Part shown: positions 33,753-60,745 of the stretch, one piece after another
Layout: every line of letters begins with the position of its first letter
How positions within the stretch are numbered: position 1 is the first letter of the stretch
Source of the DNA: Sporomusa sphaeroides DSM 2875
GTDB lineage: Bacteria; Bacillota; Negativicutes; Sporomusales; Sporomusaceae
Reading direction: 5' to 3'
DNA length: 64,000 nt
NCBI RefSeq assembly: GCF_001941975.2
Contig: NZ_CP146991.1
Span: 3,655,001-3,719,000, forward strand
Translations under genes and position numbers: made by a program
The notes under the pieces: model-generated
What the model was told of the DNA's origin: nothing
Databases searched by the model: none
What the model saw: the letters and a program-made list of their open reading frames with translations, nothing else

Positions 33753-34355
33753 TTATCCTTCAGCCAACGTTTTCAGCTTCATATATTCTTCCCAGGTATC
33801 GGCGTCCAAAAAGCAGGCAGGCTCAGGCCAGTCCACTTCACTGACCCATTCCGGGTTATTACGCATAAGCTGCCGCCCGCCGGTGTCGCCGGTTAAGGCT
33901 GACAGACCGTCACGCCAATGGCTGCCGAACAGCACCGGGCTGTAGCGCTGCCCCTGACAGCAGGGCACCACAATTGCCTTGTCGCTCGCGGCCTGCCTGA
34001 ATTTCGCCAGTATGGCTTCAATCAGGGCAGAGGATACCAGTGGCTGGTCGCCCAAAAAGAACATGATGCCTGCCAGCTGCGGCGGCAGCATTTGCAGCGC
34101 CAGCACAAGGGAGGAAGCCTGACCGCTGTGCCTGTTGGCATTAAAAACCGACCTTACCTGGTATTGCCGGCATAATTCGGCCAGTTCGCTCTCAGGCTCG
34201 CCAATAACAGCAATACTTGCCGTCCATGGCAGGCTATGGACCGTGCCGAGCACATGGGCCATCAGGGACTTGCCGGCTAAAGGCAGCAGCAGTTTTTGTT
34301 TTCCCATGCGGCTGGCGGTTCCGGCCGCTAAGATTACTGCACCAACCGGTATCAT
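33753..34355 (-). CDS. MocA-like molybdenum cofactor cytidylyltransferase
   Basis: 200 residues with a nucleotidyltransferase fold: AVILAAGTASRMGKQKLLLP (the NTP loop) at the N-terminus, GQASSLVLALQ near 77, FFLGDQPLV near 97 (metal-binding Asp) and GDTGGRQLM near 155. In MocA and relatives this joins CMP to molybdopterin for xanthine dehydrogenase-family enzymes. It overlaps the yqeC stop by four bases and is the last gene of the purine hydroxylase cluster. Confidence 0.88.
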   Translation of the reverse strand: MIPVGAVILAAGTASRMGKQKLLLPLAGKSLMAHVLGTVHSLPWTASIAVIGEPESELAELCRQYQVRSVFNANRHSGQASSLVLALQMLPPQLAGIMFFLGDQPLVSSALIEAILAKFRQAASDKAIVVPCCQGQRYSPVLFGSHWRDGLSALTGDTGGRQLMRNNPEWVSEVDWPEPACFLDADTWEEYMKLKTLAEG

Positions 34356-35104
34356 AACCGGTACACCGCAAGCGGCTTCATGGAACAGCCATAACCGGCT
34401 GTCACCACTACCCGCTCAATGTTGGCTTTGGCCAGCTTGCAATACCCGGCAATTTGCGCCGCCGCGACCTGTGCAGCGATATCGCCGCCACTTAGCAGCA
34501 GCACCTTGGTTCCCCGGGCATGCTGAAAAATCCCCTGCCGGTGCACCGCCAGGCGGGCTATATCCTGCCATTCAACATTTGCGCCCGCTTGCTTGCTAAT
34601 AATGGCGGCTACCAAATCCAGGCGGTGAGCATTGTCCGCCGTTAAGGGCTGCCCCAGCGTGCTCAGATTCAACACACCGACAGTCATAGCAGTACCGGCA
34701 GGAATAACCGGTTCATGGGGCGCCGGCGCCTTGATCTTTGAGCAGCGGGCCCCGTCGGCTTCTACCAGAATATAAGCAGCAGGCACCTCGGCTGCCAGCT
34801 TGGCAAGCCACTCTGGCGGCAGCCCCAGAACCTTGCCGCCATTTTGCCTGGACAGCCACGCGATTATTTTCCCTGACTTTAGTGCCTCGACTACTTTTTC
34901 CTGGCCTGCCGCATAATCGTCTGTCACTACCGGCTGAAAATCAGCCACCTGGTTATAAAACATCTTCGTGGTTGCGGTAAGCAAAACCGGCCGGCCCTGC
35001 TGCCCGGCGCTCTTAGCCAGCGACTGCAGCAGCGAGGTCTTGCCGCCAGCACCGACACAGGCAATCATGCCCGGCAGGGTAATTCCCAGTGCATCCCAGA
35101 GCAT
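34352..35104 (-). CDS. yqeC: YqeC, putative selenium-dependent hydroxylase accessory protein
   Basis: 250 residues. The N-terminus has a P-loop-like ACVGAGGKTSLLQSLAKSAG, followed by TATTKMF near 43, VEADGARCSKIKAPAPHEPV near 113 and the C-terminal GYCKLAKANIERVVV. This is the YqeC family, known from genome comparisons to occur with SelD and YqeB in organisms with selenium-dependent molybdenum hydroxylases. Its exact reaction is not settled. It lies four bases after the small XdhC-domain gene and overlaps mocA. Confidence 0.88.
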   Translation of the reverse strand: MLWDALGITLPGMIACVGAGGKTSLLQSLAKSAGQQGRPVLLTATTKMFYNQVADFQPVVTDDYAAGQEKVVEALKSGKIIAWLSRQNGGKVLGLPPEWLAKLAAEVPAAYILVEADGARCSKIKAPAPHEPVIPAGTAMTVGVLNLSTLGQPLTADNAHRLDLVAAIISKQAGANVEWQDIARLAVHRQGIFQHARGTKVLLLSGGDIAAQVAAAQIAGYCKLAKANIERVVVTAGYGCSMKPLAVYRL

Positions 35105-35107
35105 AGC

Positions 35108-35419
35108 TCACACCACCTGAATAAATACTTCCATAATCCCGCCGCAGGCCATACCTTCGTCCGCGGCTGTATCGCCGGTCATCGACACATTATAGATGGA
35201 TGACCGGTTGTCATCAAGCGCGGTTAGCGCCTGCAGTTTTGCCTCCGCTTCGGCGCAACCGCCGCCGATGGTACCAAATACGCGGCCATCAGGATAGACC
35301 AGCATTCTGGCACCGGCCTTGCGCGGCGTGGAGCCGCGGGTGGCAATAATAGTAACAAGTGCTGCTTTCCAGCCTGCCTGCTTTGCCTCACAAATAGCCT
35401 GAACCATAGTATCATCCAT
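35108..35419 (-). CDS. XdhC/CoxI N-terminal-type domain, separate gene
   Basis: 103 residues from ATG 35419 (six bases after GGAGGT). ATRGSTPRKAGARMLVYPDG and GTIGGGCAEAEA, then ADEGMACGGIMEVFI, make up the XdhC_CoxI domain that normally forms the N-terminus of XdhC. Here it stands alone and is encoded after the Rossmann part, overlapping it by eight bases. XdhC proteins bind the molybdenum cofactor and insert it, often after sulfuration, into xanthine dehydrogenases. MACGG carries the conserved Cys. Confidence 0.85.
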   Translation of the reverse strand: MDDTMVQAICEAKQAGWKAALVTIIATRGSTPRKAGARMLVYPDGRVFGTIGGGCAEAEAKLQALTALDDNRSSIYNVSMTGDTAADEGMACGGIMEVFIQVV

Positions 35420-36197
35420 ATTTGTACCTCCACCTGTCACTCAGCGGACGGCAATTGGCGTTTCTGTCAACAGCTACCATTTCCGCAACAATACTAAGGG
35501 CAATCTCCTCCGGCGTTTCGGCACCGATATCCAGCCCGATAGGCGCCCGCAGCCGGTCTACCGCTTCACGGTCAAAACCTTCTTCCAGGAGAGTCTTCAT
35601 CGCCCCCCGCACCCGCCCCTGGCTGCCAATCATGCCAATATAGGATGCAGGCTGGGTAATCACCGCCCTGATACACTCCATGTCTGAGCGATGACCACGG
35701 GTAACAATAATGATGGCGCCAAAACCTGCCAGTGCCAGTTCGGTCAAAGCCCGGCCAAATGGCCGGCATACCACCTGCTCAGCCTGCGGAAAGCGGGTCC
35801 GGTTGGCAAAATCCGGACGGTCATCCACCACCGTAACGGCATAACCAACTTTGGCCAAAAACTCCGTAAGCGGCTGGCTGATATGGCCTGCCCCCAGCAC
35901 CAAAGCCGACCGCCGCCGGGAAAGTTTATCCCAGAACAAGCGGTATCGGTTTCCGGCATACGCGATTTCGAAAAGCAAGGGCTTGGTCCAGGGAGTGGCA
36001 GTGGCGGTTACCTTGTCAATAACCAGCCTGGTAAAAGCCCCATCGATAAGGCGCCCGCCGGTATAGTCCGCGGTAATGACCAGCGTGCTGCCGGCAGCAT
36101 TATGTTTGTCCGGCGGTGTGCCGACAAGGGTGATTATATCGGCAGGCTGCGCCTGCTGCGCACATTCTGCAAGTTTGAAAAGAATATCCTTATCCAT
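35412..36197 (-). CDS. xdhC: XdhC Rossmann-domain protein
   Basis: About 261 residues from ATG 36197, which has GGGGG just upstream; the longer frame to 36305 overlaps yqeB and lacks a ribosome site. The C-terminal half is the XdhC Rossmann domain: SALVLGAGHISQPLTEFLAK near 98, VVDDRPDFANRTRFP near 121, IIIVTRGHRSDMECIRAV near 160, and GLDIGAETPEEIALSIVAEM near 230. The CoxI domain is the next gene, giving an order opposite to ordinary XdhC. The fused gene at 58515 has the same inverted order in one chain. Confidence 0.88.
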   Translation of the reverse strand: MDKDILFKLAECAQQAQPADIITLVGTPPDKHNAAGSTLVITADYTGGRLIDGAFTRLVIDKVTATATPWTKPLLFEIAYAGNRYRLFWDKLSRRRSALVLGAGHISQPLTEFLAKVGYAVTVVDDRPDFANRTRFPQAEQVVCRPFGRALTELALAGFGAIIIVTRGHRSDMECIRAVITQPASYIGMIGSQGRVRGAMKTLLEEGFDREAVDRLRAPIGLDIGAETPEEIALSIVAEMVAVDRNANCRPLSDRWRYKYG

Positions 36198-36999
36198 GGT
36201 TCCCCCGCAAATGCAATAAGGCTTCCAGTACGCCGCCGCCAACGGCTCTGGCCTTATCTGAGATGGTAAAACAATGTTCCGGGCAGCAGCGCGGGTCAAC
36301 ATCACCTATTTTCATTTTTCTGGTAACAGTAAGTTGGCTTTGCAGCAAACCGCGCAAGATACCGGCAATATTAACTTTAACGGCAGTGTCGCCTACATGC
36401 CCGACAATATCACCTGCGGCTACGGTGTCGCCGATTTCACGGCAAGCCACAAACACACCGTCCGCCGGCGACCTGACCAGCCGTTCAATGGTAAAGCCGC
36501 CCACTTCACCCGGGATGCCGGTATTGGCGATGGCTGTACCGTGATAGATGACCCGGCCCAAATCATGGCCCCGCATGGTTTCCACTACGGCATGAACATC
36601 CTCGCCGGCGGTAAAGCCCGGTCCGGCGCCAATCACTACCGGTGCATCGGTGATGCGGGTGCCTGTGTTGCGTTTTGCCAAAATGGCGTCAACAATTGCC
36701 ACCGGCTTCAGGGTAGCAATTACCTGTTGTACTTCTTGCGGCTCTGAAGCCAACAGCACCGGAATCCGGCCGGCAGCTAACTTTTCCGGCACTGCAGCAA
36801 GCGTGGCTAATTCGGCTGTCACTGCTTCCACCGTCACCGGTGCATTTTGTATTACGGCCTGAGCAAAGGAAACCGTCCGCCGCACGGCGGTAGGGTTAGC
36901 TATTTCCAAAATTACTACAGCAAAGTGACTCGTGTGCAGACGATGGGCAATGCCTGTGGCAATATCGCCGCCACCTTTGACTATGACTATCTTGTCCAT
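36190..36999 (-). CDS. yqeB: YqeB, selenium-dependent molybdenum hydroxylase system protein
   Basis: 269 residues. IVIVKGGGDIATGIAHRLH at the N-terminus and VVIGAGPGFTAGEDVHAVVE near 121, DLGRVIYHGTAIANTG near 148, GDTVAAGDIVGHVG near 190 (a biotinyl-like hairpin) are the EF2563/YqeB pattern. YqeB is a marker for selenium-dependent molybdenum hydroxylases; with YqeC it is thought to help mature the labile selenium-containing centre (established association, mechanism unclear). It overlaps the downstream xdhC gene. Confidence 0.9.
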   Translation of the reverse strand: MDKIVIVKGGGDIATGIAHRLHTSHFAVVILEIANPTAVRRTVSFAQAVIQNAPVTVEAVTAELATLAAVPEKLAAGRIPVLLASEPQEVQQVIATLKPVAIVDAILAKRNTGTRITDAPVVIGAGPGFTAGEDVHAVVETMRGHDLGRVIYHGTAIANTGIPGEVGGFTIERLVRSPADGVFVACREIGDTVAAGDIVGHVGDTAVKVNIAGILRGLLQSQLTVTRKMKIGDVDPRCCPEHCFTISDKARAVGGGVLEALLHLRGNHG

Positions 37000-37072: not shown

Positions 37073-38413
37073 TTAGCCAATATATTCCTGCTTGCCAATG
37101 GCCGCTTCAGCCGGTTTATTGGTGCCGTTAAGGACAGCATTCAGAATAATGGCCGCCACACTGCCGGCCGTGATGCCGCTGTGGAGGATTACCTGCGCCC
37201 AACTGGGGAATTGGTGATAGAAATTGGGGACAGCCAGGGTAATCATGCCAACTCCCATACTTATGGCAATTACCATAATATTATGAGTACCGTCAAATTG
37301 AACCTTGGACAAGGTTTTAATCCCACTGGCAGCCACCATGCCGAACATGGCAATACCGGCGCCACCCAATACCGGATTGGGGATGGCGGCAACTACAGCG
37401 GCGAATTTAGGGAACAAGCCCAGGATAACTAAAATGGCACCGGCGGCAGCCACTACAAAGCGGCTTTTTACTCTGGTCAAACCGACCAGGCCCACGTTTT
37501 GGGCAAACGCCGTATAGGGGAAGCTATTCAAAATACCGCCCAGGATGGTTGAAAAACCGTCAGCCCTGAGCCCGCGGGTCAAATCTTCCTGCGTAACAGG
37601 CTTGTCAATAATTTCACCGACGGCAATACAGTCACCGGTGGTTTCAGTCATAACGACCAGCATAACCAGGATCATAGCGACAATGGAAGCCAAGTCAAAG
37701 GTCGGCAGGCCAAAGGCAAACGGGGTGGTAATTCCCAGCCAATTGGCTGTGGCAACCTGCGAGAAGTTGACCATGCCAAACAAAGATGCGATCACTGTAC
37801 CGCAGAGAAGTCCCAGAAGAACAGCAATATTACTTAAAAATCCTGTAAAGTATCGGTAGAAGAATAATACCAGCAGCAAGGTAACAAGTGCCAGACAGAT
37901 ATATGAAAAAGAAGCAAAATCTTTAGCTGCCGGGTTACCGCCAGCCGCCCAGCGTACTGCCACCGGCATTAGGGTAACGCCGATAATTGTAATAATCGTA
38001 CCTGTCACTACCGGCGGGAAGAAACGGATCAGACGGCTAAAATACGGACTCATCAAATAGGTCACAATACCGGCAACAATAACAGAACCATAAATACCAG
38101 TTAAACCATGAGTCTGACCAATGATGATCATCGGGGTTACCGCAGCAAAGGTCACTCCTTGGATAATGGGAATACGAATCCCCATATTCCAAAAACCCAG
38201 GGTCTGAATCAAAGTAGCAATACCACAGGTGAACAAATCCGCGTTAATGAGATAAATCAGCTGTTCCTGGCTCAACCCCAGCGCATTGGCGATAATCAGC
38301 GGCACAGCCACCGCACCGGCATACATAGCCAAAACATGCTGCAACCCATAGGTAAACAAATGTCCCAAGGGCAGCATCTCGTCGACAGGGTGTTTTAGTT
38401 GATTGTCTTGCAC
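37073..38413 (-). CDS. NCS2-family xanthine/uracil permease
   Basis: 446 residues, about 12-14 membrane segments. Family blocks: GLQHVLAMYAGAVAVPLIIA near 20, a QTLGFWNMGIRIPIIQGVTF stretch near 68, TGDCIAVGEI near 258, and GILNSFPYTAFAQNVGLVGL near 290, the substrate-site signature. It should import xanthine, uric acid or uracil with protons or Na+. The start is GTG 38413, five bases after GGAGGAG. It sits inside the purine hydroxylase cluster, which favours xanthine/urate. Confidence 0.92.
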   Translation of the reverse strand: MQDNQLKHPVDEMLPLGHLFTYGLQHVLAMYAGAVAVPLIIANALGLSQEQLIYLINADLFTCGIATLIQTLGFWNMGIRIPIIQGVTFAAVTPMIIIGQTHGLTGIYGSVIVAGIVTYLMSPYFSRLIRFFPPVVTGTIITIIGVTLMPVAVRWAAGGNPAAKDFASFSYICLALVTLLLVLFFYRYFTGFLSNIAVLLGLLCGTVIASLFGMVNFSQVATANWLGITTPFAFGLPTFDLASIVAMILVMLVVMTETTGDCIAVGEIIDKPVTQEDLTRGLRADGFSTILGGILNSFPYTAFAQNVGLVGLTRVKSRFVVAAAGAILVILGLFPKFAAVVAAIPNPVLGGAGIAMFGMVAASGIKTLSKVQFDGTHNIMVIAISMGVGMITLAVPNFYHQFPSWAQVILHSGITAGSVAAIILNAVLNGTNKPAEAAIGKQEYIG

Positions 38414-38567: not shown

Positions 38568-40853
38568 TTATTTTGTCTGACTTTTCATTCCCATAAATAC
38601 TCTTTCCGGGGTTATCGGCAGCCGGGTAACTTTGGCGCCTACCGCATTATATACCGCATGGGCAATGGCCGGCGGCGGCGTGTTGATAACCACTTCACCG
38701 ATGGATTTGGCACCAAACGGGCCGGTGGGCTCATAGCTGGCTTCAAAGGCTACCGTAATTTTGCCGACATCTTTGCGGCAGGGAATCTTATACTGCATAA
38801 AGTTATTGGTCTGCAGCTTGCCGCGGCGGCTGTAGCGAACATCTTCATACAGCGCCATACCAATACCCTGAGCAATACCGCCTTCTACCTGAATCCTTGC
38901 CAGATTGGCGTTAAGCACGGTGCCACAGTCCACCACCGCCACATAGTCAAGCAGTTCAACCACACCGGTTGCGGGGTCAACTTCGACCTCGACAAAGCCG
39001 GCAATAAACGGCGGCGGCGATATAGGCGAACCACAGGTGGCATTGCCCACCAGCTGCCGCTTGCCAGCACCTAACACCTGGAGTTCTGCCAGTTTTGCCA
39101 GCGTCATCGACTGACTGCCGTCAGTTGTTCGCAGCACCTGACCGTCAAAGTCGATTTCCGCCGGGGTCACGGTAAGCAGCTTAGCCGCCTGCTCAATGAT
39201 CTGCTGCTTTAAATCCTCGGCGGCTTGCAAGGCAGCCATGCCGGTGACATAGGCAGTGCTGGAGGCATATGAGCCGGGATCATAGGGGGAAACATCGGTG
39301 TCAGCGGCATGCACAACAATGTTGTCAGGTGAAGTTTGCAGGACTTCGGCGGCAATTTGCGCCAATACCGTATCACTGCCTGTCCCCATATCGGTTGAGC
39401 CTGTCAACAGGGTATATTCACCGGCATCGGAAAGACGTATTTCAATAGAGGCTGTGTCAATACCGGCAATACCGGAACCCTGCATGGTTACCGCCATACC
39501 GACAGACCGGACTTTACCGTCAGGCAATTCCCGGCGGGGGTACTTTTCGTTCCAGCCAATCAATTCCTTCCCTTTGGCAATACAGCGGTCAAGCGCTGAA
39601 CTGTTAAGCACTTTTCCCTGATAAATAAGGCAGGTCTCGCCTTCTTTAATCAAGTTTTTCAGCCTAAGCTCAGCCGGGTCCAGGGAAAGCCGGGCAGCCA
39701 GCTGGTTGACAGCCGATTCCAGGGCAAACGTGCCTTGCGTGGCGCCATAGCCTCTGAGCGCTCCTGCCGGCATTTTGTTGGTGTATACGGCATGTCCGTG
39801 ATACCGGACAGCCCGGGTTTTATTGTACAGCGGCAGCGTCTTCTCGCCACATACCGAAAAAGTGGTGGACGAATGTTCGCCATAAGCGCCGGTATCTGAC
39901 AGGTTTTCAATATCAAGCGCCCGGATAAAACCGTCCTTGTCAGCGCCTAATCTGACGGTAAGCTTCATAGCATGACGGCTGGAGGTAGCGCTGAAGGTTT
40001 CCGTACGGCTGTAAATGTACATCGCCGGTTTGCCGGTGGTGAGCGAGACCAGGGCGGCAAACACATCACCGGAACCGGTCTGCTTGCCACCGAAACCGCC
40101 GCCGATCCGCGGCTTGATCACCCGCACTTTGCTGGCCGGCAATTCCAGTGCTCTGGCTACATGCCGCCTGATGTGGAAAGGCACCTGGGTGGAACTGACA
40201 ATCACCAGTCTGCCGGCATGGTCAAGATATGTGAAGGAACGGAAGGTTTCCATCATGGCATGGGCCTGCGCCTGGGTATAATAGGTTTCTTCAATAACAA
40301 TGTCACACTTTTTGAGTTCCTCATCAACATCGCCGACGGCGACAGTGTGCGAGGAACAAATGTTGCGCTCCTTGTCCATACCGATCGGGAAGTTGCAAAA
40401 GAGGTCAGACTCAGGGTGAACGACCGAAGTATGGTCAATGGCTTGTTCAAAATCAAGCACCGGTTCAAAAATCTCATAGCTGACCTTGATCAGTTTCATG
40501 GCGGCGTTGGCAGCTTTTTCATCCACAGCGGCAATAATGGCCACTTCATCACCGACATAACGCACAAGGGGATCAAGGATCAGCCGGTCATAGGGTGAAG
40601 GTTCAGGGTAGGACTGGCCTGCCAGCGTAAACCGTACCTGCGGCACATCTTTATAGGTAAGAATGCATTCTACCCCTGCAACCAGTTTGGCTTTGCTGGT
40701 GTCAATGGCTGTAATCCGGGCAAACGCATGAGGGCTTCTCAGGATTTTTACCACCAATGCGTTGGCCGGCGCTAAATCTTCCGTATATACCGGTTTGCCG
40801 GTGCTGATGGCAATGGCGTCTGTTTTGGCTAAGCCTTTACCTACATATTTCAT
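38568..40853 (-). CDS. Xanthine dehydrogenase-type molybdopterin-binding subunit
   Basis: About 761 residues. Ald_Xan_dh_C domain at the N-terminus (KPVYTEDL, LRSPHAFARI), then the large Mo-binding domain: QAQAHAMMETF near 217, PRIGGGFGGKQTG near 270, GALRGYGATQGTFALES near 382, GTGSDTVLAQIAAEVL near 500, and FGAKSIGEVVINTPPP near 715, where the final Glu is the catalytic base. It hydroxylates a purine or other N-heterocycle with water, passing electrons to the 2Fe-2S and FAD subunits. The start is ATG 40853, overlapping the 2Fe-2S stop (ATGA). With YqeB/YqeC in the operon, a selenium-dependent form is likely (inference). Confidence 0.92.
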   Translation of the reverse strand: MKYVGKGLAKTDAIAISTGKPVYTEDLAPANALVVKILRSPHAFARITAIDTSKAKLVAGVECILTYKDVPQVRFTLAGQSYPEPSPYDRLILDPLVRYVGDEVAIIAAVDEKAANAAMKLIKVSYEIFEPVLDFEQAIDHTSVVHPESDLFCNFPIGMDKERNICSSHTVAVGDVDEELKKCDIVIEETYYTQAQAHAMMETFRSFTYLDHAGRLVIVSSTQVPFHIRRHVARALELPASKVRVIKPRIGGGFGGKQTGSGDVFAALVSLTTGKPAMYIYSRTETFSATSSRHAMKLTVRLGADKDGFIRALDIENLSDTGAYGEHSSTTFSVCGEKTLPLYNKTRAVRYHGHAVYTNKMPAGALRGYGATQGTFALESAVNQLAARLSLDPAELRLKNLIKEGETCLIYQGKVLNSSALDRCIAKGKELIGWNEKYPRRELPDGKVRSVGMAVTMQGSGIAGIDTASIEIRLSDAGEYTLLTGSTDMGTGSDTVLAQIAAEVLQTSPDNIVVHAADTDVSPYDPGSYASSTAYVTGMAALQAAEDLKQQIIEQAAKLLTVTPAEIDFDGQVLRTTDGSQSMTLAKLAELQVLGAGKRQLVGNATCGSPISPPPFIAGFVEVEVDPATGVVELLDYVAVVDCGTVLNANLARIQVEGGIAQGIGMALYEDVRYSRRGKLQTNNFMQYKIPCRKDVGKITVAFEASYEPTGPFGAKSIGEVVINTPPPAIAHAVYNAVGAKVTRLPITPERVFMGMKSQTK

Positions 40854-41305
40854 GACGGTGTTACCCCCAGATATTTCTTGACAGCCCGAAGCTGCCCTTG
40901 ATAGCCGGTACAGCGGCACAGGTTGCCTGTCAGGTAATGAACAATCTGCGCCTCGGTGGGATTAACCAGTTCCCGCTTCATGGCAAGCACGGTGAGAATA
41001 AAGCCCGGGCTGCAATAACCACATTGGTCGGCACCCTCGGCAGCCATGAATTGGGCAAAGTTCTCCGCCTCGGACGGCACTCCCTCAATTGTCGTAATCT
41101 GCCTGCCATGCGCCCTGAATGATAATAGCGAGCAGGAAAGTGTCGGCTGGCCATCAAGCCAGACGGTACACAGACCGCAGCAGGTGGTATCACAGCCTCT
41201 GCGCACACTGTACAGCCCCTGTTGGCGCAGCGTATCCACCAGGAAATCGTCAGGCTGAACTTCCAAAGCTGTTCGCCGGCCATTGATGATGATTTCTATT
41301 TGCAT
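40850..41305 (-). CDS. Xanthine dehydrogenase-type 2Fe-2S subunit
   Basis: 151 residues. An N-terminal plant-type 2Fe-2S ferredoxin domain (RRGCDTTCCGLCTVWLDG near 36, closing Cys in LSCSLL) is followed by the helical 2Fe-2S domain (QCGYCSPGFIL near 94, NLCRCTGYQG near 128). All eight cluster cysteines are present; the usual GxCGxC reads TTCCGLC, with one extra Cys. It overlaps both neighbours by a few bases. Confidence 0.93.
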   Translation of the reverse strand: MQIEIIINGRRTALEVQPDDFLVDTLRQQGLYSVRRGCDTTCCGLCTVWLDGQPTLSCSLLSFRAHGRQITTIEGVPSEAENFAQFMAAEGADQCGYCSPGFILTVLAMKRELVNPTEAQIVHYLTGNLCRCTGYQGQLRAVKKYLGVTPS

Positions 41306-42093
41306 GCCGCCACCTCCGCGATTGCCCGTTTAACCAGCACCTGGCACATGGCCTGCCGGTATTCTGCCGACCCGCGCATATTGTCGCCAAAAGGCAACTC
41401 AATTGCTGCCGCCTGCGCGGCCTGTTCCATTACCGCCACAGTTAGGTTGCCACCTGGCAGCAGCTTAGCGGCCTCAAGCGCCAGTCTGGCCTTGGTGGGA
41501 CGCGCGCCGACAGCAATCTGCCACTCTGCTCCCAGCCGGGATACCGCTGCCGTAAGGACAGGATAATCGCTGGCCGAGTTACGCAGCGCCTGATAGGCTG
41601 CCCGGCGCTCTGTTTTGTGAATAATGATTTTCGTCAAAATATCTTTGGTACGGGGCCTGTCCATAAATTCTGCCAAGCCCATACGCCCGCCATCGTACAA
41701 TTCTATTTCGGTATCCAGTACCAATAATATGGTAAGCAAATCCGAAAAACCATACCGGGAAAATACCGACGCCCCGGCGGTGGCAACATTGCGGAATTGT
41801 ACCCCGATAATATTGCTGACAGCCTGAGGCACTACCCCGCCGCAATATTCCTGCAGCGCCTGGTGGGTTTCCAGCTCGCGCAAAGTAGCCATGGCCCCGA
41901 TCTCGATATGCCCGGTACAGTTATTGATATAGTCAAGTCCCAGTTTCGTTAGATCCACGCCGGTGTGGATGATTTGAGAACCCATACGAAGCCAGGCACA
42001 ACCGCCAAGTATCGTATTGCTCTTCTTTTCCCGCAATATTTTGTAAGCCTCTGGCAGCGTATCCGGTTGCACTACATTACGTAATGTAAACAA
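41296..42093 (-). CDS. Xanthine dehydrogenase-type FAD-binding subunit
   Basis: About 265 residues: an FAD_binding_5 domain (AYKILREKKSNTILGGCAWL near 20, IEIGAMATLRELETHQAL near 65, NIIGVQFRNVATAGASVFSR near 95) and a CO dehydrogenase flavoprotein C-terminal domain (VGARPTKARLALEA near 195). I take TTG 42093 as start, seven bases after AGGAGG; the ATG at 42117 is upstream of that ribosome site. It is the first gene of the cluster. A weak sigma-70 type -10 box (TATAAT) lies about 55 bases upstream, next to a TTCGAA-centred palindrome. Confidence 0.9.
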   Translation of the reverse strand: MFTLRNVVQPDTLPEAYKILREKKSNTILGGCAWLRMGSQIIHTGVDLTKLGLDYINNCTGHIEIGAMATLRELETHQALQEYCGGVVPQAVSNIIGVQFRNVATAGASVFSRYGFSDLLTILLVLDTEIELYDGGRMGLAEFMDRPRTKDILTKIIIHKTERRAAYQALRNSASDYPVLTAAVSRLGAEWQIAVGARPTKARLALEAAKLLPGGNLTVAVMEQAAQAAAIELPFGDNMRGSAEYRQAMCQVLVKRAIAEVAACK

Positions 42094-42213
42094 TTCTTTT
42101 CCTCCTACGCCGAACATTCGGTTTGTTTTTAATAATATAGTTCGAATTATATCATATCACAGTCATTATGAAAACCCACATTTCCCCCTAAAAATCCACA
42201 TTTCGACAATAAG

Positions 42214-57397: not shown

Positions 57398-58339
57398 CTA
57401 TTTTGTTTCTACTCTTCTATTATATCTGTTAAAAGTTGCACTCGTAAAATAATTTTCCAGATAAGAAACAAACACCTTTTGGACCGGCGATAACACCACT
57501 GCTTTTTTAAAAACAAGATGCAATTGCCGGGTAAATGCCTGTTTTCCAAGGTCATATACCTTGATTTGCCCCGTCTTTTCATAGGCAGCGGCAGCAACTT
57601 TGGAAACAAAGGATATTCCCATCCCGTGGGACACAGCGGATAAAATACCCTGGGTATCGTGGAAATAGGACACAACATTCAGATTCCGGACAGAAATGCC
57701 TTGCTTGTGCAGCAGCTGCTCCATTTCCGTGCGGGTGCCGGAGCCGTCCCCGCGCATTACAAAAGGCTGCTGCCGTAAAAACGATGACAGATCGCGATAA
57801 AGCTCCTCTTGGTTAACGATCATCGATTTAGGGGTAATCAACACCAGCCTGTCACGGTAGAAAGGAACCGTCAGCAAATGGCGGGAACTGACGCTGGTAC
57901 CCACTATGCCAAAATCATACCGGTACCCCAAAAGACTTTCCGCAACCTGCAGGCTGTCTGCCTGGTGGACATCAAACACGATATGGGGATACTGTTGTTG
58001 AAATGCCGCAATGATCTCCGGCAGCAGGAACTGAGCAGGAACGGTAGAGGCTAAGATACTGATTTCTCCACCCATCTCCCGGTCAACTCTCTTAATACTG
58101 CCGATTGCCTCATCGCGCAGGGCAAGGATGCTTTTGGCGCGGTGAAACAGCTCTTTGCCTATCTGGGTCGGGTAAACGGTCCTGGTAGAACGTATTAAGA
58201 GTTGCGCCCCTATCTCGTTCTCCAGAGAACTGATGTGGGCGCTGATGGTCGGCTGAGACAAATAGATCATGTCGGCTGCCTTGGAAAAGCTGTTGTGTCG
58301 GACCACTGCGACAAATGCTTCCAGTTGTTTCATTTCCAT
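57398..58339 (-). CDS. LysR-family regulator of the second molybdenum module
   Basis: About 313 residues from ATG 58339, seven bases after GGGAGGT. The helix-turn-helix reads NSFSKAADMIYLSQPTISAH near 20. The effector domain starts near 92 (GEISILASTVPAQFLLPEII), with the RGDGSGTRTEMEQLL cleft segment near 208. It is on the same strand as, and directly downstream of, the fused XdhC and MoeA-like genes, so it probably controls them or an unlinked molybdoenzyme. Confidence 0.88.
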   Translation of the reverse strand: MEMKQLEAFVAVVRHNSFSKAADMIYLSQPTISAHISSLENEIGAQLLIRSTRTVYPTQIGKELFHRAKSILALRDEAIGSIKRVDREMGGEISILASTVPAQFLLPEIIAAFQQQYPHIVFDVHQADSLQVAESLLGYRYDFGIVGTSVSSRHLLTVPFYRDRLVLITPKSMIVNQEELYRDLSSFLRQQPFVMRGDGSGTRTEMEQLLHKQGISVRNLNVVSYFHDTQGILSAVSHGMGISFVSKVAAAAYEKTGQIKVYDLGKQAFTRQLHLVFKKAVVLSPVQKVFVSYLENYFTSATFNRYNRRVETK

Positions 58340-58514
58340 CCTTGCTACCTCCCGCGAAGTTCCGCTCAACCACTGCACAAAGTATAGTAAATAGCCCGCC
58401 TCAAACTATGTCTCCTGCAGGTTTCAAGAACTATATGCACATTCTTACCGGCAATAAACCCTGAGTTAAGTCTTCGCTTCCTTTGATTACAACTAAAGGC
58501 TTAAACTGTTGTCA

Positions 58515-59657
58515 TTAGTTTTCACATCCCTCTATAGCCCGGTAAAAAGTGGTCACCGGCTCAATGAAAACTTCTAGCATCCCGCCGCAAGCCATACCTT
58601 CCATCGCAGCTATATCGGCAGTCATTGATACTCTGTAGATGTGAGGCTTATCTTGGTCCATGACATGTAAAGCCATCCTGCGTACTTCCGCTTCCGCACA
58701 GCCGCCGCCGATTGTGCCATATGCCCGTCCGTCCCGGTAAAACAGCATCCTGGCGCCACTCTTACGCGGCGTTGAACCCTGCGATTTTATTATTGTCGCC
58801 AGCGCGGCCGGCGTTTTATCCCGCGCCGCAGCCAATGCCGCATCCAGGGTTTCCCGATCTGCGGCTGTCAGCATTTCGCAGATTTCCCCTTGTTTAACCG
58901 GCGTCGTATCTTTTAGAGATAACGTCTCTCCGGCACGACGGACACTGATTAGTTCCGCAGCAATACTGACGGCAATTTCCGCCGGAGTCTGCGCCCCAAT
59001 CGCCAAGCCAATAGGCATATGTATCTGGTCAATTTTTTCCTGAGCCACTCCTTCCTCAGCCAAGGTTTGTTTTACCAATGCCACTTTCCGCCTGCTGCCG
59101 ATCATTCCCAGGTAAGCAAATGGATACTTAATAACCGTCCTCAGGCAGTCCATATCATGGAGATGGCCGCGGGTAACAATGACAACGCTGCTTGCCGGCC
59201 CCAGTCTCACCACTTCTTCCAGATCGCTGAAACTGCAGCAGATGCTTCTGTCATGCACAGTCAAATATTCATTCATTGCGAAATCCGGCCGGTCATCGAT
59301 CACGGTAATCTTATATCCCAGCAGATGCCCCACCTGAATTAGCTGCCTGGCAATATGGCCGCCGCCGAGGATTACAAGTTCCTGACAAGGCAGGTAAGGA
59401 TCCAGCATAACCTTAACGATTTGCTCCGGCTCCTCCGGATTGGCAAGACTTGCCGTTCTAAACTTACCATCCTTCAGCGCTTCTCTGGACAAACACGCCA
59501 ATTCTTCATCAAGCCAGTTCATCGGCAGCTTGATATTTCCCGTTCTGTTTTCACCGTCCGGCGAAAGCAGCGTTTTTTGCCCAAGTATATCACACGGCAG
59601 GTTTTCCACTCCGATAACTGTCGCTATTACTATTGCTTCCGGTAATTCAAATTCCAT
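58515..59657 (-). CDS. XdhC-family maturation protein, inverted-order fusion
   Basis: 380 residues. The Rossmann domain comes first (VILGGGHIARQLIQVGHLLG near 94, VIDDRPDFAMNEYL near 119, VIVTRGHLHDMDCLRTV near 158, GLAIGAQTPAEIAVSIAAEL near 220) and the XdhC_CoxI domain second (IKSQGSTPRKSGARMLFYRD near 290, GTIGGGCAEAEVRRMAL near 315, MEGMACGGMLEVFIEP near 350). Standard XdhC has the reverse order. The two-gene version at 35108-36197 has the same order as this fusion. It should bind and deliver the molybdenum cofactor to a hydroxylase of the xanthine dehydrogenase family. AGGAGGGGG precedes the ATG. Confidence 0.88.
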   Translation of the reverse strand: MEFELPEAIVIATVIGVENLPCDILGQKTLLSPDGENRTGNIKLPMNWLDEELACLSREALKDGKFRTASLANPEEPEQIVKVMLDPYLPCQELVILGGGHIARQLIQVGHLLGYKITVIDDRPDFAMNEYLTVHDRSICCSFSDLEEVVRLGPASSVVIVTRGHLHDMDCLRTVIKYPFAYLGMIGSRRKVALVKQTLAEEGVAQEKIDQIHMPIGLAIGAQTPAEIAVSIAAELISVRRAGETLSLKDTTPVKQGEICEMLTAADRETLDAALAAARDKTPAALATIIKSQGSTPRKSGARMLFYRDGRAYGTIGGGCAEAEVRRMALHVMDQDKPHIYRVSMTADIAAMEGMACGGMLEVFIEPVTTFYRAIEGCEN

Positions 59658-59701: not shown

Positions 59702-60745
59702 CTAAGATAAATAGGTAGTTCCTTTGCCGAAGGTACAATTTGGATAGGTGCACTCAGTGCATGCACGGCATAGGCCTCCATGGGCCAGCGCCACTATGTC
59801 TTTGCGTGATACTTTTTCGCCTGCCAAAAGCCGGGGCAAAAGCAAATCAATAATAGTTATTTTGAAAAACATGCCACAGGCAGGCACGCCCATTACCGGT
59901 ATATTATCCAGATAGGCAAGCATAAACATCGCCCCGGGGAGCGCTGGAGCACCATACTTTTCGACTTTGGCGCCGGATAATTTTATAGCATTCGGAGTAA
60001 CGTCGTCGGGATCGACCGACATTCCTCCGGTGACAAAAATAATGTTTGCGCCATTATTGGCCATCTCTTTAATTTTAGTTGAAATGACTTCCATATCATC
60101 TGGAGCATATTCGAGTTTTAGGATTCTTGAGCCAAAAGCTTCCACCTTTTCAGTGATTACAGGGCTAAACCCATCGCGAATCCGCTGTTTAAAAACCTCG
60201 CTGCCAGTAATGACCACACCGACATCAAGCTTGCGAAAGGGAGCCACCTTAATAACCCATCCTGCCTGCCGGCAAATCCCTTCAGCCGCCATAATGACTT
60301 TTTCTTCAGTCACCAATGGTATAACTTTCGTTCCTGCCAACAATTCACCGCTTTTGACAACAGTATTATTGGGCAGTGTGGATAAAATCACGTCAGGCAG
60401 ATTATTGATCGCCTCCAGAGCACGGACATTGACTTTAAAAAGACCGTCACGTTCAGCATATAGATTGACCCGGCTTTCCTTAGGCGGGCTACAGCGCACA
60501 CCCTGATTCGCAACCGCTGCCCCCAGGCGGATTCCGGCCTCGTCCTCGTGCACATCGCCTGGTTCAAGCTCCAGGATATAAATGTTTTCTTTGCCCATTT
60601 TAAGCAGTTCTGGCACATCCTCCTCTTTGATTATGTACCCTTTTCTAAAAGGTGTGTCCTTAAACCCGCCCTGCACAACTTTTGTAAGATCATGGCTGAG
60701 CACCTTTCCAATTGCTTCTTCCACCTTAATTGTTTGTACTTTCAT
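59702..60745 (-). CDS. MoeA/MogA-like molybdopterin-binding protein with Cys-rich tail
   Basis: 347 residues. The MoCF_biosynth (MogA-like) domain lies near 175-310: VGVVITGSEVFKQRIRDGFS, ANIIFVTGGMSVDPDDVTPN and VMGVPACGMFF. The N-terminal half resembles part of MoeA but is not a standard MoeA. The last 25 residues carry CRACTECTYPNCTFGKG, a CxxCxxCxxxxC motif that could hold an iron-sulfur cluster or zinc. Such proteins occur next to molybdenum hydroxylase accessory genes; the reaction is unproven. It is the first gene of a leftward MoeA-like/XdhC/LysR series. Confidence 0.82.
   Translation of the reverse strand: MKVQTIKVEEAIGKVLSHDLTKVVQGGFKDTPFRKGYIIKEEDVPELLKMGKENIYILELEPGDVHEDEAGIRLGAAVANQGVRCSPPKESRVNLYAERDGLFKVNVRALEAINNLPDVILSTLPNNTVVKSGELLAGTKVIPLVTEEKVIMAAEGICRQAGWVIKVAPFRKLDVGVVITGSEVFKQRIRDGFSPVITEKVEAFGSRILKLEYAPDDMEVISTKIKEMANNGANIIFVTGGMSVDPDDVTPNAIKLSGAKVEKYGAPALPGAMFMLAYLDNIPVMGVPACGMFFKITIIDLLLPRLLAGEKVSRKDIVALAHGGLCRACTECTYPNCTFGKGTTYLS

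Follow-up and report, generated by a model that had tools for sequence, protein, structure and literature searches.

A putative degenerate CoxI domain and a movable intact CoxI domain in split and fused XdhC-type chaperones of Sporomusa sphaeroides and other Bacillota

According to passages of three papers on XdhC-type chaperones (PMC2997495, PMC3909100, PMC10609526), XdhC binds the molybdenum cofactor, undergoes sulfuration with a cysteine desulfurase and carries out cofactor insertion; XdhC of R. capsulatus and PaoD of E. coli are dimers, and one cysteine is kept in almost all XdhC proteins. In R. capsulatus XdhC this conserved cysteine is Cys82 (a passage of PMC2997495). The CoxI domain stands in front of the Rossmann domain in the PDB entries 2WE7 and 3ON5 and in the profile NF045664 (profile positions 2-100 for CoxI and 181-344 for Rossmann), in agreement with an earlier description, made from the sequence alone, of CoxI-first XdhC as the standard; this order is typical of the XdhC family and lies outside the two Pfam definitions. 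The protein family TIGR03309 (YqeB) is described in passages of Haft and Self 2008 (PMC2276186) as often fused with XdhC-like domains.

The window, i.e., the whole stretch of 64,000 nucleotides from Sporomusa sphaeroides DSM 2875 analysed here, contains two XdhC copies in which CoxI is not N-terminal to the Rossmann domain; the order is reversed in both, and in one of them the domains are split between two genes. At the split locus, the first gene (35412..36197, minus strand) encodes a core protein of 261 amino acids (297 from an alternative upstream GTG start) with a match to the Rossmann family PF13478 (XdhC_C, 5e-42), and the second gene (35108..35419, minus strand) encodes a CoxI protein of 103 amino acids from the ATG at 35419 (110 from an upstream GTG start, to 35440) with a match to PF02625 (1.4e-24). 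The motifs GSTPR, GGGC and MACGG, the last being the cysteine motif, are present in the 103-residue protein. Residues ~1-85 of the core are assigned to a degenerate CoxI-fold domain, here called psiCoxI, from the profile comparison of the set to which it belongs and from motif loss, and the remainder is the XdhC_C Rossmann domain; in the core, no CoxI match of PF02625 was found at 0.01, and its own pre-Rossmann segment gives 9.6 bits with the CoxI profile. The core and CoxI genes overlap by 8 nt (ATGGATGA, 35412-35419), and the yqeB and core genes overlap likewise by 8 nt (36190-36197), which suggests translational coupling. The fused copy (58515..59657, minus strand) is a single chain of 380 residues with PF13478 at 94-236 and PF02625 at 278-342, and Pfam and an AlphaFold2 (AF2) model divide it into psiCoxI (1-88), Rossmann domain (93-241), a linker of low confidence (244-257) and intact CoxI (265-376).

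The domain order that had been read from the sequence at both loci, in overlapping genes at 35108-36197 and in one chain at 58515-59657, is thus confirmed by the Pfam matches, and the two copies form a genuine Rosetta-stone pair with a shared domain order. Chance matches are excluded because the CoxI domains of the split and fused copies (86.2 and 91.6 bits; gathering cut-off of PF02625, 24.3) and their XdhC_C domains (143.8 and 140.2 bits; gathering cut-off of PF13478, 29.7) lie 62-114 bits above the Pfam cut-offs. Between the two copies, 67 of 163 aligned columns are identical in the Rossmann domain and 58 of 99 in CoxI, and in the tree the copies are assigned to different starred sets; the identities and the tree together rule out that one copy arose recently from the other by fission or fusion. 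The closest proteins to the fused copy in the compared set belong to genome G084 (68%) and to Pelotomaculum propionicicum (65%), the latter being encoded directly before yqeB and yqeC, and the split copy is most similar to other split copies from within its family (75-78%).

The split pair belongs to a run of minus-strand genes, which encode, in order, the FAD subunit (41296..42117; PF00941, PF03450), the 2Fe-2S subunit (40850..41305; PF01799, PF00111) and the Mo-binding subunit (38568..40919; PF02738, PF20256; best NCBIfam match NF043082, under its cut-off) of a xanthine dehydrogenase-type hydroxylase, a xanthine permease (37073..38413; TIGR03173, 573.3 bits, cut-off 414), the selenium-dependent molybdenum cofactor protein YqeB (36190..36999; TIGR03309, 334.8 bits, cut-off 220), the psiCoxI-Rossmann core, CoxI, YqeC (34352..35104; TIGR03172, 160.3 bits, cut-off 73), 3 nt after the CoxI gene, and a MocA-like nucleotidyltransferase (33753..34355; TIGR03310, 159.2 bits, below the cut-off of 186; PF12804). 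This hydroxylase is the likely client of the split-pair chaperone. Adjacent YqeB and YqeC together with SelD in the genome (387 bits, C1:4911551-4912471), which characterize an accessory locus of selenium-dependent molybdenum hydroxylases (SDMH), are all found for the split pair. The selD frame contains one in-frame TGA, probably for selenocysteine.

The fused copy is flanked, also on the minus strand, by the gene of a MoeA-like protein (59702..60745; PF00994; with a C-terminal cysteine cluster) and that of a selenium metabolism-associated LysR regulator (57398..58378; NF040786, 332 bits, cut-off 250); no yqeC was found near it within the window. A second yqeB lies 0.5 kb past the window end, 4.9 kb from the fused XdhC and behind an IS110 element. 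The genes past the window end are those of the IS110 transposase, the second YqeB, a transporter of the sodium:solute symporter family and a molybdenum hydroxylase of 969 residues. The gene of the IS110-family RNA-guided transposase (L212 7150-8364; from 63150 of the window past its end) separates the fused-XdhC group from the second yqeB, and upstream of the second yqeB group (L212 14827-17332) there are proteins of 296 and 526 amino acids with no Pfam match at 1e-8, the longer one having ferredoxin-like cysteine motifs. MoeA-like proteins of 341-347 amino acids adjoin both the fused XdhC and an aldehyde oxidoreductase cluster (L009 1850-2875); their C-terminal cluster consists of GGLC followed by Cys after 2, 2 and 4 residues, and no NCBIfam model matched them above its cut-off at either site.

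In the whole genome, four CoxI and four Rossmann matches were found, two of each in the window. Outside the window there are a standard-order XdhC and, 0.6 kb from it, a third permuted copy, again a split pair (C1:1428.2-1430.6 kb). Both lie in a cluster encoding proteins above the cut-offs of NF045664, NF045665, NF045666, NF045667, NF045668 and NF045669, which make up the aldehyde oxidoreductase maturation set; the standard-order paralogue is a full member of NF045664 (432 bits). The 20 kb around the third permuted pair contain neither yqeB nor yqeC.

To speak of an inverted order is a simplification, since the segment before the Rossmann domain is, as judged by profile comparison, a second and degenerate CoxI. 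In both orders this concerns about 80 residues (medians of 81 in permuted proteins, after a cut at 90, and of 80 between CoxI and Rossmann in standard long proteins). The segment profile of 133 permuted proteins matched in HHalign the CoxI profiles of the permuted, standard long and short forms at 97.6% (E 2.7e-12), 98.2% (E 5.6e-14) and 98.4% (E 4.7e-15), respectively, and that of 54 standard long proteins matched the same three profiles at 94.6%, 96.3% and 96.2%, while all controls (reversed, Rossmann, YqeB and YqeC profiles) on the cleaned sets stayed below 1%. For a strict test, segments with at least 5 bits to any CoxI profile were removed, which left 33 of the 133 permuted and 30 of the 60 standard segments (classified before the motif filter). 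The remaining permuted and standard segments matched standard-order CoxI at 95.2% and 87.6%, respectively, and permuted-order CoxI alone at only 77.6% and 38.6%, with a maximum of 15.2% among the controls (standard segment against YqeC). Segments above the Pfam CoxI cut-off were found in four genomes of the phylum sample (G261, 45.0; G184, 32.6; G197, 28.0; G290, 27.6 bits), three of which are of one genus.

The degeneration of psiCoxI is seen in its motifs: C.G and G[STA].P occur in 1 and 2 of the 133 permuted segments, respectively, and both in 0 of the 54 standard ones. They occur in 203/203 intact CoxI domains, a set that was itself chosen by these motifs, so that the contrast between intact CoxI and psiCoxI is circular for the intact side; with unfiltered labels, CoxI of the permuted order has C.?GG in 135/136 and G[ST].P in 134/136 cases. 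Comparisons with equal-sized profiles gave psiCoxI its best score against short-form CoxI in 1093 of 1480 cases for the permuted and 327 of 390 for the standard segments; the short-form profile was built from the same 12 sequences in each of the 15 draws and could in part be a more generic one; in HHalign the standard segment is equally close to long-form and short-form CoxI (96.3% vs 96.2%). The best scores suggest that psiCoxI descended from the CoxI of a short CoxI-Rossmann protein, a second intact CoxI having been recruited in front, behind or in a gene of its own.

Structure prediction from the single sequence of the fused chain gave a pLDDT of 35.7, and the AF2 model with 30 sequences gave a pLDDT of 84.9 and a pTM of 0.80. 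In this model psiCoxI has strands 9-18, 28-31 and 38-40, helix 47-63 and strands 67-72 and 80-88, and CoxI has strands 284-294, 303-307 and 312-314, helix 319-335 and strands 339-344 and 359-367. By eye, five strands and one long helix follow each other in the same order in both domains, with elements of almost equal length, and CoxI has three further helices (265-279, 348-352 and 369-376). Residues 1-241 of the model (psiCoxI-Rossmann) were superposed on residues 115-359 of 2WE7 by VIA-align over 233 residues at 3.2 A with a Z of 22.4, indicating that the same core is present in a solved standard-order protein. Superposition on 3ON5 gave a Z of 22.1 but an rmsd of 12 A, and domain placement there differs or is uncertain.

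The architectures seen in the compared genomes are CoxI-Rossmann, CoxI-psiCoxI-Rossmann, and psiCoxI-Rossmann with CoxI behind it, the permuted form, either split or fused. Nonredundant loci in which an intact CoxI and a Rossmann domain lie at most 2.6 kb apart were collected, and the motif filter reduced them from 229 to 212. They are unevenly drawn: the class sample together with the S. sphaeroides genome contributes 82, the named-genome scan 69 and the phylum sample 61. Of the permuted loci, 83 are split and 54 fused, and of the standard loci, 69 are fused and 6 split. A segment of at least 40 amino acids precedes the Rossmann domain in 136 of the 137 permuted loci (the exception, L064, starts 19 nt from a contig end) and in 6/6 standard split loci, and lies between CoxI and Rossmann in 57 of the 69 standard fused loci, the other 12 being short proteins with intact CoxI directly on the Rossmann domain; this rule counts length only, and the CoxI fold of each single segment is inferred from its set.

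In the class sample, CoxI was found in 67 of 120 genomes, and permuted XdhC, split or fused, in 50 of the 64 classified (G039, G068 and G062 were left out, the last probably as a duplicate). Locus L122 of G062 is permuted and has yqeB. In the phylum sample, CoxI was found in 70 of 149 genomes and permuted XdhC in 33 of the 69 classified (G314 was left out), with 57 standard fused, 21 permuted fused and 15 permuted split loci; the phylum labels are those without the motif filter, and they omit unpaired Rossmann rows (G186 C1:2073280, G314 C75), the fragment G314 C69, the partnerless CoxI of G245 C13, fragmentary Rossmann rows above the cut-off (G248, G245 C13, G226 C1:1513565, G241) and Rossmann rows below it. 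The named loci are the best 80 of 582 relatives found with a CoxI query seeded on the window, an uneven sample, and the permuted order is found there in Sporomusa, Propionispira, Pelotomaculum, Natroniella, Clostridium, Blautia, Cytobacillus, Neobacillus, Moorella and others; the same scan found no relative when queried with the fused protein of 380 residues. On these three samples, the permuted order is widespread in Bacillota. In a Chloroflexi MAG (L207, 6276-8288) the order is Rossmann, yqeB, CoxI, with YqeB encoded between the XdhC pieces.

On FastTree trees of the 212 rows, the order changes 10 times (Rossmann), 13 times (CoxI) and 9 times (both joined) against about 62 times when shuffled, so the order is inherited with occasional switches; the fusion state changes 10-12 times. 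The trees are unrooted and without outgroup, and 80 of the 93 phylum loci were fetched for them (the others are the own genome's 4, those of G020 and G013, already in the set, and those of G179 (two), G221 (two), G257 (two) and G232, left out). Such clustering, with rare switches, is what a plain circular permutation would give, in which a single rearrangement, e.g., by tandem duplication with partial loss, turned CoxI-linker-Rossmann into linker-Rossmann-CoxI, and in which the linker has no relation to CoxI. This is in line with the superposition of the core on the standard-order 2WE7, and a single clade of permuted forms was not rejected by the AU test on 92 rows including degenerate CoxI (p 0.254), but it was rejected on 67 cleaned rows (p 0.023). 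The linker is moreover CoxI-derived by profile comparison and AF2 secondary structure, and among the 212 loci a separate CoxI gene follows the core in 83 (permuted split) and precedes it in 6 (standard split), which favours recruitment of a module over one cut-and-join event; we consider a plain permutation improbable. The sequence-only reading had suggested that the permuted order is the ancestral or functional form in this lineage. As a regular form it stands, being the commonest in the class sample (50/64 genomes), and its ancestry does not follow from an unrooted tree. An ancestral permuted order in Bacillota, from which the standard order was derived repeatedly, would agree with that frequency and with the nesting of some standard-order rows among permuted rows; however, with no outgroup root and 37 of the 64 inner branches of the cleaned tree open, the direction is unreadable, and starred branches force only 2 order changes on that tree. 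The phylum sample has 57 standard against 36 permuted loci, and we hold an ancestral permuted order to be doubtful.

A third explanation takes the permuted order for the mark of selenium-specific chaperones, which together with YqeB and YqeC would serve selenium insertion only. Within the window, the position of the split pair between yqeB and yqeC speaks for it, as does that of the fused copy beside the selenium-associated LysR gene and 4.9 kb from a second yqeB. The link to selenium proposed from the sequence alone was also recovered at the genome level in the phylum sample, where YqeB is present in 30/33 permuted and 16/36 standard-only genomes (Fisher 3.9e-5), although it weakens to a median p of 0.03 (0.008-0.16) when each family is represented by a single genome; among seven families with both states, four are informative, all in the expected direction, and three uninformative. 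It was not recovered in the class sample (42/50 permuted vs 13/14 standard genomes, p 0.67; 42/50 vs 13/13 with cleaned labels), nor at the locus level, where 17/33 permuted and 15/28 standard loci of the YqeB-bearing phylum genomes lie within 10 kb of yqeB (p 1.0). A scan of 50 named genomes, covering 50 of the 80 loci and picked to favour isolates and long contigs, gave YqeB above its cut-off in 26/42 permuted and 6/8 standard ones. In genomes with both orders, yqeB is nearer the permuted copy in three (G000, G283, G306) but beside the standard copy in four (G226, G262, G291, G316). The expected tracking of the order with yqeB also fails in eleven permuted genomes with neither YqeB nor SelD above the cut-offs, some of them MAGs, where assembly may miss genes (G014, G027, G031, G041, G042, G044, Propionispira raffinosivorans, Clostridium beijerinckii HUN142, two Tissierellia MAGs and Sinanaerobacter chloroacetimidivorans). 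Nine genomes of Cytobacillus, Neobacillus, Paenibacillus and Rossellomorea have permuted split pairs and SelD without YqeB, and the third permuted pair of S. sphaeroides lies in the aldehyde oxidoreductase maturation cluster, with neither yqeB nor yqeC in the surrounding 20 kb. The gene tree offers only 2-3 supported independent contrasts of order and selenium, too few for a test. We regard a selenium-specific form as very unlikely; permuted chaperones serve SDMH loci and are not specific to them. Permuted XdhC is likewise unfit as a selenium marker, a use rejected by the locus-level results, the class sample and the genomes lacking both YqeB and SelD. YqeB matches in G073, G214, G251 and G281 lie in open frames of 450-585 amino acids, suggesting a YqeB fused to another domain.

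The explanation that we prefer, and judge as a whole to be probable, is a modular chaperone with a fixed core of CoxI or psiCoxI and Rossmann domain, and with a movable intact CoxI that pairs in a pseudo-symmetrical manner with psiCoxI. The architectures are best explained by an old duplication, which left a worn-out copy in the middle of the chain and a working CoxI free to stand at either end or in its own gene. By sequence, the core consists of the Rossmann domain and the CoxI-fold domain before it, which is intact in the short form and a psiCoxI without the motifs in the others; in the standard long and permuted forms, the intact CoxI stands in front, behind or as the separate protein of 103 residues.

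The function of the window proteins is probably ordinary XdhC chaperoning. By homology, the chaperones of both loci would hold the molybdenum cofactor while its equatorial oxygen is replaced by sulfur, or perhaps by selenium in SDMH loci, and would then deliver it to an enzyme of the xanthine oxidase family. The intact CoxI would bring the cysteine, with psiCoxI as its docking partner, and the two may pack against each other, within one chain or between subunits, as a pseudo-pair in place of the contact between the two CoxI domains of a short-form dimer; such a pair would leave the chain free to be linked at either end or to stay unlinked. The conserved cysteine of CoxI, lost from psiCoxI, would be the working residue. 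In the CoxI alignments, the cysteine of GMxCGG is invariant (C93, 14 rows; C357, 30 rows), and we infer that it is Cys82 of R. capsulatus XdhC, the sequence of which is outside these alignments. In the operon, psiCoxI-Rossmann is followed by CoxI, in overlapping and probably coupled genes, and an in-frame fusion of these would give the single chain. We also considered that a single cell has several psiCoxI-Rossmann cores, each serving its own hydroxylase, and that the 103-residue CoxI is a diffusible, exchangeable S/Se carrier, which would collect the chalcogen from a desulfurase or selenophosphate and bring it to the cofactor on these cores. If this were true, order and fusion would matter only for how firmly the carrier is bound to a single client; we give this carrier reading little credence.

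The architecture is common, and in open-licence literature we found no paper naming a permuted or duplicated XdhC domain order and no experiment on a permuted XdhC. The useful result is psiCoxI together with the movable CoxI module. A long XdhC with two CoxI-fold domains, only one of which has the cysteine motif, gives a simple structural hypothesis in which the order need not matter, and this bears on the sulfuration of the molybdenum cofactor by XdhC and on the entry of selenium into SDMH enzymes. The split pair is a natural two-piece chaperone, the cysteine-bearing part of which can be swapped, titrated and mutated on its own.

Compared with the known XdhC chaperones (R. capsulatus XdhC and E. 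coli PaoD/YagQ), the window proteins share PF02625 and PF13478, a conserved cysteine motif in the intact CoxI and the gene location beside that of a xanthine-dehydrogenase-type enzyme. They differ in domain order, in the separate CoxI gene and in the extra degenerate CoxI, the last being common to the standard long forms, and 2WE7 has the same core. The profile of the XdhC family aldehyde oxidoreductase maturation factor, NF045664, is matched by both halves of the window proteins, but as two stretches in the opposite order and below the cut-off of 350 (276.4 bits for the fused copy; 188.3 and 92.0 for the split pair); the scores with TIGR02964 (xanthine_xdhC, cut-off 161.6) are also all below (133.7 for the fused copy; 79.5 and 47.0 for the split pair). 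The SDMH accessory set of Haft and Self 2008 comprises YqeB (TIGR03309), YqeC (TIGR03172) and YgfJ (TIGR03310), and the split pair is likewise placed between yqeB and yqeC in a run with xanthine dehydrogenase and permease genes. The passages of that paper make no mention of domain order in XdhC; in the genomes compared here, both XdhC orders are found together with YqeB, and there are also genomes with the permuted order that lack YqeB.
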